Shown: positions 20,159 to 23,242 of the stretch, piece by piece
Layout of the letters: every line of letters starts with the position of its first letter
Numbering within the stretch: position 1 is the first letter of the stretch
Assembly (NCBI RefSeq): GCF_011393335.1
Contig: NZ_CP049865.1
Location: forward strand, 3,056,722-3,120,721
Reading direction: 5' to 3'
Length of the DNA stretch: 64,000 nucleotides
Source of the DNA: Propioniciclava coleopterorum
GTDB lineage: Bacteria; Actinomycetota; Actinomycetes; Propionibacteriales; Propionibacteriaceae
Notes under the pieces: generated by a model
What the model saw: only the letters and a program-made list of their open reading frames with translations
The model's database searches: none
What the model was told of the DNA's origin: nothing
Made by a program: the position numbers and the translations under genes

Positions 20159-20758
20159 TCACTCGCAGGCGACGCCGTCGTTGTCGCGATCCAGGTGCGG
20201 GGCGTACCCCGGCTGGCCCTTCCGCAGCGGCGCCTCGCCCGCCGCGCGGACGGCGTCGCAGTTCTTGTAGTACGAGGCGCCGCCCGCCGCCTTGGTCGTC
20301 TTCGGCGCCGTCGTCGCCCGGGGCGCGGTCGTCCGGGCGGCCGGCTGCGTGCTGGCCGCCGCCGCCCGAGTGCTGGTGGCCGGCAGCGGGGCGAACTGCG
20401 CGATGGTGGGCTGCGCGGTCGTGGGCTCGGGCGTGGCCTCCAGGGCGGACGCCGCGGGGTCGGGGGTCGGCTCGGGCTCGGGCGTCGGCTCCGGCGTGGG
20501 CTCCGGCGTGGGCGTGACGGTCACGGTTTCGGTCACCGTGACGGTGACGGTGGGGGCCGGGGCCGCCGCGGGCACCGCCGTGGGCTCGGGGGTCGGCAGC
20601 ATCAGGCCGCCGGTGACGAACGCGACGAGTGAGCCGCCGAGGACGGCCGCGCCCGCCTTGCGGCTGCGGATGCCGGCCCAGCGGATCCGGCCCGTGGCGA
20701 CGCCGAGGAGGCCGACGACGAACGCCGCCAGCGACAGCAGGATGATGAAGACGCCCAT
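20159..20758 (-). CDS. Membrane protein with Excalibur calcium-binding domain
   Basis: From ATG 20758 the protein has 199 residues. Two N-terminal hydrophobic segments (FIILLSLAAFVVGLLGVA and a second ending at TGGLML) are followed by a low-complexity Thr/Pro/Glu/Ala linker with PTPEP repeats. A C-terminal Excalibur domain (YYKNCDAVRAAGE to DNDGVACE) carries a DxDxDGxxCE calcium loop. The C-terminus is probably outside the cell. A longer start at 20830 adds a basic N-terminus and has TAGCGT 5 nt upstream, so a leaderless start there is possible. Excalibur domains occur in secreted nucleases and surface proteins; the ligand here is unknown. Confidence 0.8.
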   Translation of the reverse strand: MGVFIILLSLAAFVVGLLGVATGRIRWAGIRSRKAGAAVLGGSLVAFVTGGLMLPTPEPTAVPAAAPAPTVTVTVTETVTVTPTPEPTPEPTPEPEPTPDPAASALEATPEPTTAQPTIAQFAPLPATSTRAAAASTQPAARTTAPRATTAPKTTKAAGGASYYKNCDAVRAAGEAPLRKGQPGYAPHLDRDNDGVACE

Positions 20759-20939
20759 GGCGGACACTTTCCCGAGGTGGTGGGGCCGCCAGGCGAGGCG
20801 GCGCGCGACCGCACGGACGCGGATCGCCATCGGGCACGCTAGACGTCCGCGCGGGCCCGCGCGGCCGGGAGCGCGCGCTGTCGCTCCCGCGGGGGACACG
20901 CGGGAGCGAGTCCCTCCGGCGCCGCCCCGCCACACCAAT

Positions 20940-21065
20940 CGCGTCGTGGTCGAGGGGCGCCGCGCATCGCATTATGGCCGAGGGGCGTCGCGCACCGGTC
21001 ATCACGCACCCGGCATCGCGCACGCGCCACCGCGCACCGGCCGCCACGCGTCCGCACCGGGCAGG
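20940..21065 (+). repeat. Degenerate short repeats upstream of the trpS leader
   Basis: This gap (20831-21108) holds imprecise repeats. The block GAGGGGCGCCGCGCATCGC recurs as GAGGGGCGTCGCGCACCGG, and the word CGCGCACCGG/GCACCGGGC recurs several times. No coding potential is seen. The block ends just before the trpS promoter. Confidence 0.5.
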
Positions 21066-21095
21066 CCACGCGGCCGAGAGGGCCCGCGACGGGGG

Positions 21096-21101
21096 TAGGA
21101 T
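21096..21101 (+). promoter_or_regulatory. Putative -10 of the trpS leader transcript
   Basis: TAGGAT ends 7 nt before the ATG of the leader peptide at 21109, so the leader peptide itself would be translated from a leaderless or near-leaderless transcript. Confidence 0.55.
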
Positions 21102-21108
21102 GCTGGGC

Positions 21109-21138
21109 ATGAAGCGAGCGGGGTGGTGGCGGCCGTAA
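21109..21138 (+). CDS. trpS leader peptide with tandem Trp codons
   Basis: The ORF encodes MKRAGWWRP and stops at TAA 21136-21138. Two adjacent TGG codons (21124-21129) in a nine-residue peptide, directly before a four-segment RNA structure and the tryptophanyl-tRNA synthetase gene, are the hallmark of ribosome-mediated attenuation. The Trp codons end one base before segment 1 of the structure and the stop codon overlaps it. The peptide is too short for family matching; the call rests on this geometry. Confidence 0.8.
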   Translation: MKRAGWWRP

Positions 21139-21190
21139 CGACGGCCCTGCATTCCATCCCGAAACGGCCGTCCCGCGGGCGGCCGTTCTG
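21131..21190 (+). promoter_or_regulatory. Tryptophan attenuator upstream of trpS
   Basis: Four complementary segments can be read directly. Segment 1 GGCCGT (21131-21136) pairs with segment 2 ACGGCC (21141-21146). Segment 2, extended to 21140-21146, can instead pair with 21166-21172. Segment 3 AACGGCCG (21163-21170) pairs with segment 4 CGGCCGTT (21180-21187), giving an 8-bp stem extendable inward by a T-G wobble and two GC pairs, followed by CTGCTTGTTC. A ribosome stalled at the Trp codons would cover segment 1 and favour the 2:3 antiterminator. A ribosome at the stop would cover 1 and 2 and favour the 3:4 terminator. The T-run is weak, so control could also be translational. Confidence 0.78.
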
Positions 21191-21221
21191 CTTGTTCGCG
21201 GGACTTCACACGAGGAGAACC

Positions 21222-22349
21222 ATGTCCGAGGACATCGCCCCCACCGCCGTCGACGAGGCCGGTGACGCGCTCGCCACGTCCACGTCGGAGGCGAGCCTGC
21301 ACCGCTCGGAGGAGCGCAGCCGGGCCATCGAGGAGCAGATCGCGAAGGACGCCTCCGGCTTCCGGATGCTGACCGGCGACCGACCGACCGGCCACCTGCA
21401 CATCGGCCACTACTTCGGGTCGCTGATGAACCGCGTCCGCCTGCAGGACGCCGGCGTCGACACCTACGTGCTGATCGCCGACTACCAGGTGATCGCCGAC
21501 CGCGACGGCACGGGGCCGATCGCCGAACGCGTCACGTCGCTGCTCACCGACTACCTCTCGATCGGCATCGACCCGGGCAAGACCACGATCTTCACCCACT
21601 CCGCGATCCCCGCGCTGAACCAGCTCATGCTGCCGTTCCTGTCGCTGGTCAGCGATTCCGAGCTGTACCGCAACCCCACGGTGAAGGCCGAGCACGAGGC
21701 CACCGGCGGGCGCCCGATGTCCGGGCTGCTGCTGACCTACCCGGTGCACCAGGCCGCCGACATCCTGTTCTGCAAGGCCAACCTCGTGCCGGTCGGCAAG
21801 GACCAGCTGCCGCACCTGGAGCAGACGCGCGTCATCGCCCGCCGCTTCGACGAGCGCTACGGCCGCGTCGACCCGGCCGCGCCGGTGTTCCCGCAGGCCG
21901 AGGCGCTGCTGAGCTCCGGCTCCCTGATCCTGGGGCTGGACGGCACCAAGATGAGCAAGTCCAAGGGCAACACCATCGAACTGCGGATGACCGCCGACGA
22001 GACGGCCAAGCTGCTCAAGCGCGCCGTGACCGACTCGGACCGCCACATCACCTACGACCCGGTCGGCCGCCCCGAGGTCAGCAACCTGCTGACCATCGCC
22101 GGGTTGGCGTCCGGGCGCGATCCCCGCGCCATCGCCGAGGAGATCGGCGACGGCGGCGGCGGCGGCCTGAAGAAGTACCTCACCGAGGTGCTCAACGAGA
22201 TGCTGGCCCCGATCCGCGCCCGCCGCCTCGAACTGGAGAAGGACCCCGGGTACCTCGACGACGTGCTCGCCGCGGGCAACGCCCGCGCCAACCAGGTCGC
22301 CGACGCGACCCTGGCCGAGGTGCGCGCCGCGATGGGGATGTCCTACTGA
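21222..22349 (+). CDS. trpS: Tryptophanyl-tRNA synthetase
   Basis: The 375-residue class I synthetase that charges tRNA-Trp. The HIGH motif is TGHLHIGHYFGS and the KMSKS motif is GTKMSKSKGN. Ligand-site segments include LIADYQVI and TYPVHQAADIL. An N-terminal extension of about 45 residues (MSEDIAPTAVDEAGD...) precedes the catalytic core, longer than in the E. coli type. ATG 21222 has GAGGAG 4-5 nt upstream. Expression is probably set by the Trp-codon attenuator immediately upstream. The next gene overlaps its stop by 1 nt, so the two are co-transcribed. Confidence 0.97.
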   Translation: MSEDIAPTAVDEAGDALATSTSEASLHRSEERSRAIEEQIAKDASGFRMLTGDRPTGHLHIGHYFGSLMNRVRLQDAGVDTYVLIADYQVIADRDGTGPIAERVTSLLTDYLSIGIDPGKTTIFTHSAIPALNQLMLPFLSLVSDSELYRNPTVKAEHEATGGRPMSGLLLTYPVHQAADILFCKANLVPVGKDQLPHLEQTRVIARRFDERYGRVDPAAPVFPQAEALLSSGSLILGLDGTKMSKSKGNTIELRMTADETAKLLKRAVTDSDRHITYDPVGRPEVSNLLTIAGLASGRDPRAIAEEIGDGGGGGLKKYLTEVLNEMLAPIRARRLELEKDPGYLDDVLAAGNARANQVADATLAEVRAAMGMSY

Positions 22350-23242
22350 TGCCGCAGGACGGAGGCTCCGGCTGGCTGGTGTCGCGCCGCACCGGAGGGC
22401 GCGCGGTGTGGTCCGGGCTCGGCGTCGTGGTGTTCGGCGCGGTCACGGTCGCCACGCTGATCGGCTTCGTGCGCGCGCCGCACGTCGACTCCGGCGTCCT
22501 GGTGCTGATCGCGCTGCCGTTCCTCGTGATGGCGGTCGTGCTCGCGCTGGAGGCGCTGGGCCAGGGACTGGTGCGCGTCGACGGCTCCGGCTACCGGACG
22601 CTGCTGGGCACCCGCCGCGCCTGGGGCGACGTGCTGGCCCTGGGTGTCGGGGAGGTCGACGGCCGCACGATGCCGGTGGTCGCCCTCGCGGACGCCGCGG
22701 GTGCGTTCCCGCTCACGCAGGAGAGCTTCCCGGGGTTCGCCGAGGAGGAGGCACCGCGCCTGGTCGCGGCGTTCGCCGCCCACTGCGGGCGCGGAGCCGG
22801 GTTCGGCGGCGTCACCGTGCCGCAGGGCTGGTGGGACGACGCCGAGGCCGAGGCGTCCCGGGTCGAGGCCGTCGTGACCGCGGGGTGCGGCCGCGCGCCG
22901 CAGGGGCGGGACCGGGTGGCGTTCGGCTACCCGGGCGTCCCCAGCGCGGTCCGGCTCGACTACGGGACGAACGCGGCCGGGGACCGCGTCGAGGTGCTGT
23001 GTCGGCGCAGTTCCGACCTCGCGCTCACGCGCGCCGGACGCCGCTGGCTCCGGCAGAACCGCAAGCGCTCGGCCGACCCGGCCACGCAGGTGTGCCTGCT
23101 GTTCGGGGACTACACGGTGGAGGAGATGCCCAGCCGCGGCGCCGGCTTCGACCGGATCGGCGTCGTGTCCGCCGCGGGCGGGCGGCTGCCGTTCAACGCC
23201 GAGGAGCCCGACCGGTTCGCGGGGCAGGGGACGCCGGGGTGA
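22349..23242 (+). CDS. Membrane protein of unknown function downstream of trpS
   Basis: A 297-residue protein with two membrane helices in the first 70 residues (GLGVVVFGAVTVATLIGFV and VLVLIALPFLVMAVVLALE). A PH-like domain follows (LVRVDGSGYRTLLGTRRAWGDVLALGV), then a soluble C-terminal region without known motifs. Helix pair plus PH-like region is common in actinobacterial envelope proteins, but I do not recognise the family. The ATG overlaps the trpS stop (TGATG) and the next gene starts in its last codon (GTGA), giving a trpS-membrane protein-DinB transcription unit. Confidence 0.75.
   Translation: MPQDGGSGWLVSRRTGGRAVWSGLGVVVFGAVTVATLIGFVRAPHVDSGVLVLIALPFLVMAVVLALEALGQGLVRVDGSGYRTLLGTRRAWGDVLALGVGEVDGRTMPVVALADAAGAFPLTQESFPGFAEEEAPRLVAAFAAHCGRGAGFGGVTVPQGWWDDAEAEASRVEAVVTAGCGRAPQGRDRVAFGYPGVPSAVRLDYGTNAAGDRVEVLCRRSSDLALTRAGRRWLRQNRKRSADPATQVCLLFGDYTVEEMPSRGAGFDRIGVVSAAGGRLPFNAEEPDRFAGQGTPG

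Follow-up and report, generated by a model that had tools for sequence, protein, structure and literature searches.

A candidate leaderless tryptophan leader-peptide attenuator in front of trpS in Propioniciclava coleopterorum and related bacteria

Analysis of a 64,000-nt stretch of the Propioniciclava coleopterorum genome (contig NZ_CP049865.1; referred to below as the window) indicated that trpS is very probably (at roughly 86%) controlled by a leaderless Trp-type leader-peptide transcription attenuator, as judged from the nucleotide sequence and from comparison with related loci. Trp leader-peptide attenuation had been proposed in a preliminary description of this DNA, and the proposal is supported by the conservation of the Trp codons and by compensatory changes in two of the three alternative helices (2:3 and 3:4). 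In the proposed mechanism, transcription would begin at about the leader ATG, and a ribosome loading at the 5′ end would read the leader peptide MKRAGWWRP. With ample Trp-tRNA, the ribosome at the stop codon would cover segments 1 and 2 of the leader, segment 3 would pair with segment 4, and RNA polymerase would terminate before trpS. With scarce Trp-tRNA (low tryptophan or little synthetase), the ribosome would stall at the tandem Trp codons and cover segment 1 only; segment 2 would then capture segment 3 before segment 4 is made, and trpS would be transcribed. The expected outcome is the production of more synthetase when charged tryptophan tRNA is short.

All parts of the element are located on the plus strand (21096–21222), and the whole leader is approximately 113 nt long. 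A −10-like box, TAGGAT (21096–21101), is separated by 7 nt from the ATG (21109) of the leader ORF (21109–21138; stop codon TAA, 21136–21138), which contains the tandem Trp codons TGGTGG (21124–21129) as the predicted stall site. Segment 1 (GGCCGT, 21131–21136), whose last base is overlapped by the stop codon, can form 6 pairs with ACGGCC (21141–21146) of segment 2 (GACGGCC, 21140–21146). The latter can alternatively form 7 pairs with GGCCGTC (21166–21172) of segment 3, generating the putative antiterminator. Segment 3 (AACGGCCGTCC, 21163–21173) and segment 4 (GGGCGGCCGTT, 21177–21187) constitute the 5′ and 3′ arms of the predicted terminator hairpin, with 11 pairs and the loop CGC. This is followed by the predicted termination zone, CTGCTTGTT (21188–21196), whose short, interrupted U tract is poor, by a probable Shine-Dalgarno sequence of trpS read from the sequence (GAGGAG, 21212–21217), and by trpS itself (21222–22349). 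The encoded 375-aa protein was identified as a tryptophan–tRNA ligase (TIGR00233, 223.1 bits; cut-off 176.75). The parts, coordinates and numbers of pairs given previously for this leader (6 for 1:2, 7 for 2:3 and up to 11 for 3:4) proved correct to the base.

The 3:4 hairpin was returned exactly by a terminator scan (mean of 0.0 in 50 shuffles). The leader as a whole folds better than most of its shuffled versions (z = −2.56; 3 of 200 shuffles equally good). A pattern combining the box, the ATG and TGGTGG, which was derived from the find itself, had one match in the 64 kb at up to 2 mismatches (0.02 expected). At the gathering score, the Rfam scan of the window detected tRNA only and nothing at the leader; a permissive scan of positions 20900–21300 gave THF (19.7 bits; gathering score 36) and isrD (14.3 bits; gathering score 37), both below gathering. 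The two scans rule out an element known to Rfam, such as a T-box or a riboswitch.

Conservation was analyzed at 149 trpS loci of the family Propionibacteriaceae that encode a synthetase (TrpRS) of the window type. Matches occurred in 157 genomes, of which 147 are represented here; 8 with unlisted places and 2 with matches missing the N-terminus were left out. Two loci (L129 and L134) come from the same genomes as L013 and L014. A leader was defined as an ORF of 5–35 codons containing Trp, with its ATG or GTG placed 5–8 nt after a TANNNT box. Such leaders were found at 46 of the 149 loci (45 of the 147 genomes), compared with 1.40 expected from dinucleotide shuffles (20 per locus), and Trp-Trp leaders at 37 loci, compared with 0.00, which rules out a chance ORF. 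The remaining 103 loci have no such leader; these counts include one locus with 16 nt of upstream DNA (L017) and two whose upstream DNA is incomplete (L163 and L209). No Rfam match was found in 20 hand-picked loci without a leader. A set of 49 distinct leaders was compiled from the 46 loci, further relatives and locus L026, each chosen for the presence of Trp and of a TANNNT box. Adjacent Trp codons occur in 41 of them, and the TGG codons are thus conserved; the second TGG is invariant in the 22-row alignment described below.

The gene upstream of trpS lies on the opposite strand, and trpS therefore requires its own promoter. In 20940–21300, a promoter scan detected neither a −35 box nor a sigma-70-like promoter. 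Since TAGGAT is the only plus-strand TANNNT box in 20940–21230, a promoter downstream of the leader was rejected; there is no TA dinucleotide in 21138–21221, and no TANNNT box follows the leader. In all 49 distinct leaders the distance from box to start codon is 6 nt (18 leaders) or 7 nt (31 leaders), the selection having permitted 5–8 nt. The mean distance between box and transcription start in Streptomyces lividans is 6.3 nt, according to an RNA-seq study (PMC8079986), so the start codon is expected at or near the 5′ end. Transcription is accordingly predicted to start at the leader ATG or within about a base of it, as far as can be judged from sequence. If the transcript is leaderless, the leader ORF has no space for a Shine-Dalgarno sequence. 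The earlier view of a near-leaderless transcript is thus supported by the spacing.

Two alignments were prepared from the distinct leaders, A1 with 22 rows and A2 with 37 sequences; leaders of the type termed g13 (see below) are in neither. In A2, 87.0% of the cells of helix 3:4 are paired, and 16 both-side changes are spread across 5 pairs, a count that kinship of the sequences can inflate. Its covariation score was reached by none of 500 shuffles and its number of changed pairs by 2, its number of pair types being reached by 172. In helix 2:3, the paired cells amount to 87.2%, and there are 8 both-side changes, likewise open to inflation by kinship and all located at one pair (A-U to G-C). 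Its covariation score was also reached by 0 of 500 shuffles; its other measures, changed pairs (1) and pair types (6), were reached by 494 and 493, respectively. In A1, the 3:4 helix is 82.2% paired, and 1 of 500 shuffles equalled or exceeded its covariation score. Helix 2:3 is 96.7% paired there and shows no both-side change; it hardly varies in these rows, which makes A1 uninformative for this helix. The RNAalifold consensus of the 22 rows chose 2:3 over 3:4, together with a few long-range pairs. For helix 1:2, which the aligned sequences seem to form in two registers, 79.5% of the cells are paired and covariation is low (66 of 500 shuffles equal on pairing and 44 on covariation). Among the three helices of the preliminary description, covariation therefore bears out 3:4 and, at a single pair, 2:3, and supports 1:2 weakly.

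Many relatives have a stretch like TTTCGCATGYCCG 3′ of the terminator (window 21188–21204), part of which RNAalifold pairs with the region of the Trp codons. In addition, GTCCCGCG (21170–21177, within the hairpin and including its loop) can pair with the downstream sequence CGCGGGAC (21197–21204). This pairing is weakly conserved, with 55.7% of cells paired (matched by 6 of 500 shuffles) and a covariation matched by 23 of 500.

The effect of ribosome position was computed with the leader hidden to 15 nt beyond the first base of the P site. At equilibrium, with the full hairpin present, 3:4 prevailed both in the stalled state and at the stop codon, and only 2 of the 49 leaders switched by more than 0.5. 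As 3:4 is favoured even with a stalled ribosome, any switching would need to be kinetic. For a transcript ending before arm 4, the probability of upstream pairing of segment 3 in the window leader was 0.71 in the stalled state and 0.15 at the stop codon. The means for the 49 leaders were 0.77 and 0.26, and 37 of them differed by more than 0.3. When the stretch separating the Trp codons from segment 3 was shuffled, the mean in the stalled state was 0.57. The window value of 0.71 was reached by 10 of 100 shuffles. In 21 of the 49 leaders at most 5 of 100 shuffles were as high in this state, and 46 of the 49, which are not independent of one another, exceeded the median of their own shuffled control.

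A model (R1), built from the 37-sequence alignment, mostly of Propionibacteriaceae, was used to examine the distribution of the leader. In the genome of P. coleopterorum the window leader was retrieved with an E value of 1e-11. The next match (E 0.005, 30 bits) lies within open reading frames, one of which was read as an unrelated enzyme, and further such leaders in this genome were thus ruled out. Within the order, 98 of 293 genomes had a match at E 0.01; within the class, 48 of 394 had one at 0.001. The 56 best-scoring matches (L241 and L247–L301) were inspected, the five weak matches in the own genome (L242–L246) lying outside this set. A TrpRS gene lies downstream on the same strand in 50 of these, trpB in 1 and trpE in 5; 48 have a TANNNT box 5–8 nt ahead of the leader start, and some of the other 8 have CANNNT. 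Nineteen of the 56 had been used to train the model or nearly duplicate loci that had. The other 37 comprise 31 TrpRS loci, 1 trpB locus and 5 trpE loci, 29 of them with a TANNNT box. The genes trpB (L275; TIGR00263, 552.2 bits, cut-off 392.45) and trpE (L284, L293, L294, L296 and L300; NF010081, 785.8–807.6 bits, cut-off 645) were assigned by these scores. In a tree, the TrpRS genes with a leader fall into the clades of the window type, the L026 type, the L269/L276 type and the L277 type.

Within the genus, 11 of the 13 sampled genomes carry a TrpRS of the window type, and 9 of these 11 have the leader. It is missing from locus L006 (genome G006), where the −10 box is joined almost directly to what looks like arm 4, the 3′ half of the terminator, in a deletion-like arrangement, and from L008 (G007), where no trace of it was found. 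In the two other genomes, G003 (L026) and G004 (L025), the TrpRS falls into another clade and has 37% identity to that of the window; its gene occupies the corresponding position and likewise follows the PHP gene. A leader (MHERLRWWRP) is present before this gene in G003, and G004 has none. The simplest account for G003 is that the leader was kept through replacement of the synthetase gene; less simply, the leader may have arrived together with the new TrpRS gene.

At the g13 loci (L022, L216, L218, L219, L221, L226, L229 and L230), which belong to a related genus that we take to be Cutibacterium, a Trp leader before trpS is followed by a weak hairpin without a U tract. A strong hairpin over the Shine-Dalgarno sequence of trpS was predicted for the stop state at 7 of the 8 loci. 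Stalling raised the computed accessibility of this sequence by at most 0.14, and lowered it at two loci (from 0.80 to 0.43 and from 0.48 to 0.32). According to these folding models, translational control of trpS is possible in this group.

Other explanations for the window element were weighed against transcription attenuation. The poor U tract would suit a switch in which the same leader hides or frees the Shine-Dalgarno sequence of trpS and so controls translation with no termination; the g13 leaders, without a U tract and mostly with a Shine-Dalgarno hairpin in the stop state, point the same way. However, the Shine-Dalgarno accessibility computed for the window is 0.38 for either ribosome position, a hairpin of this kind is not seen there, the terminator scan detects 3:4, and even in g13 the gain upon stalling is small or reversed, so that translational control appears unlikely here. 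That 3:4 is favoured at equilibrium in nearly all cases is what would be expected if the hairpin were a constitutive partial terminator or an RNA stabiliser and the short ORF incidental. The 37 Trp-Trp leaders where none was expected, and the location of all the best 56 R1 matches before Trp genes, make an incidental ORF a decidedly improbable explanation.

It is also formally conceivable that there is no leader and that TrpRS is translated with a longer N-terminus from GTG 21123, up to which the trpS frame is open. This open frame varies among close relatives, to the point that only 377 aa are available at L005, and the N-terminal extension was rejected on these grounds; GAGGAG precedes ATG 21222, and the conserved Trp ORFs of relatives end before trpS. 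We consider such a start extremely improbable. Transcription attenuation thus remains the preferred reading. A broader proposal can be put forward only tentatively, and we regard it as rather doubtful: that the leaders belong to a single family of leaderless Trp-sensing RNAs, widespread in actinobacteria and outside Rfam, a portable module preceding trpE, trpB and TrpRS genes from four or more distant clades, which would stay through synthetase exchange and would have been rewired in one genus from terminator to Shine-Dalgarno control.

Searches of the own genome found a single TrpRS gene, the second PF00579 gene encoding TyrRS. Between the PHP gene and trpS lies an Excalibur-domain gene (20159–20938, minus strand); it was not detected at any of the 43 other loci compared, most of them with 1.5-kb flanks, and is perhaps a local insertion. 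The gene following trpS (22349–23242) encodes a 297-aa protein with no Pfam match, and was found again behind trpS at 8 of the 10 other loci of the genus with the window type of TrpRS. In the approximately 600 nt scanned upstream of the own trpE, which is preceded by a gene read as hisI, one short ORF contains Trp, as a single codon, and there is no Trp-Trp leader; a Trp leader before this gene was thereby ruled out for that stretch.

In S. coelicolor, trpRS1 is reportedly under ribosome-mediated attenuation (Vecchione and Sello, 2010); there too, the control of a TrpRS gene is reported to depend on a Trp leader peptide. Leaderless poly-Cys ORF attenuators of mycobacteria were reportedly presented by Canestrari et al. 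in 2020. Going by the title, they resemble the window element in using a short leaderless ORF as an amino acid sensor for control of a downstream operon, but they differ in sensing Cys instead of Trp and in acting on other genes. The S. coelicolor TrpRS1 is described as an additional, indolmycin-resistant synthetase (PMC9437257), whereas no second TrpRS gene was found in the genome of the window.

The closest counterparts come from Streptomyces. By RNA-seq, TrpL2, a Trp leader without a 5′ untranslated region, was mapped ahead of trpS in S. lividans, and the study describes 7 of its 8 leader peptides as leaderless (PMC8079986). TrpL2 of strain TK24 (MMTRTCTQLWRAA; Table 4 of PMC8079986) resembles the window leader in being leaderless, in its position directly before trpS and in its hairpins without a U-rich stretch, and differs in having one Trp codon versus two. 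R1 retrieves WW versions of a peptide very similar to this tabulated one (MTTRTCTQLWWAA) before TrpRS genes, which belong to a clade other than that of the window. In 2005, Seliverstov et al. predicted attenuators before S. avermitilis trpS2 and before the trp operons of Corynebacterium and Streptomyces; these share with the window a leader with repeated UGG codons and complementary GGCC-type triples common to antiterminator and terminator (PMC1262725). The difference is that trpS is named there for Streptomyces only, though the genomes covered included that of P. acnes (PMC1262725). A search by titles and the beginnings of abstracts, with thin coverage of subscription literature, found no report of a trpS attenuator in Propionibacteriaceae, the nearest being PMC1262725. 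A leader so compact before a synthetase gene, probably read without a Shine-Dalgarno sequence, had initially been called unusual. This judgement is not supported, because a leaderless Trp leader before trpS is known in S. lividans and trpS attenuators were predicted in Streptomyces in 2005; the window element belongs to an already reported type.

With the present results, synthetase genes under Trp attenuation would come to include the only TrpRS gene found in the genome of a member of the Propionibacteriaceae. Natural comparisons are available as well: in one species the leader stands before a different synthetase, and in two others it is missing. These allow tests of the selection that maintains the switch, and of the way in which leaderless initiation may serve a sensor of about 113 nt.
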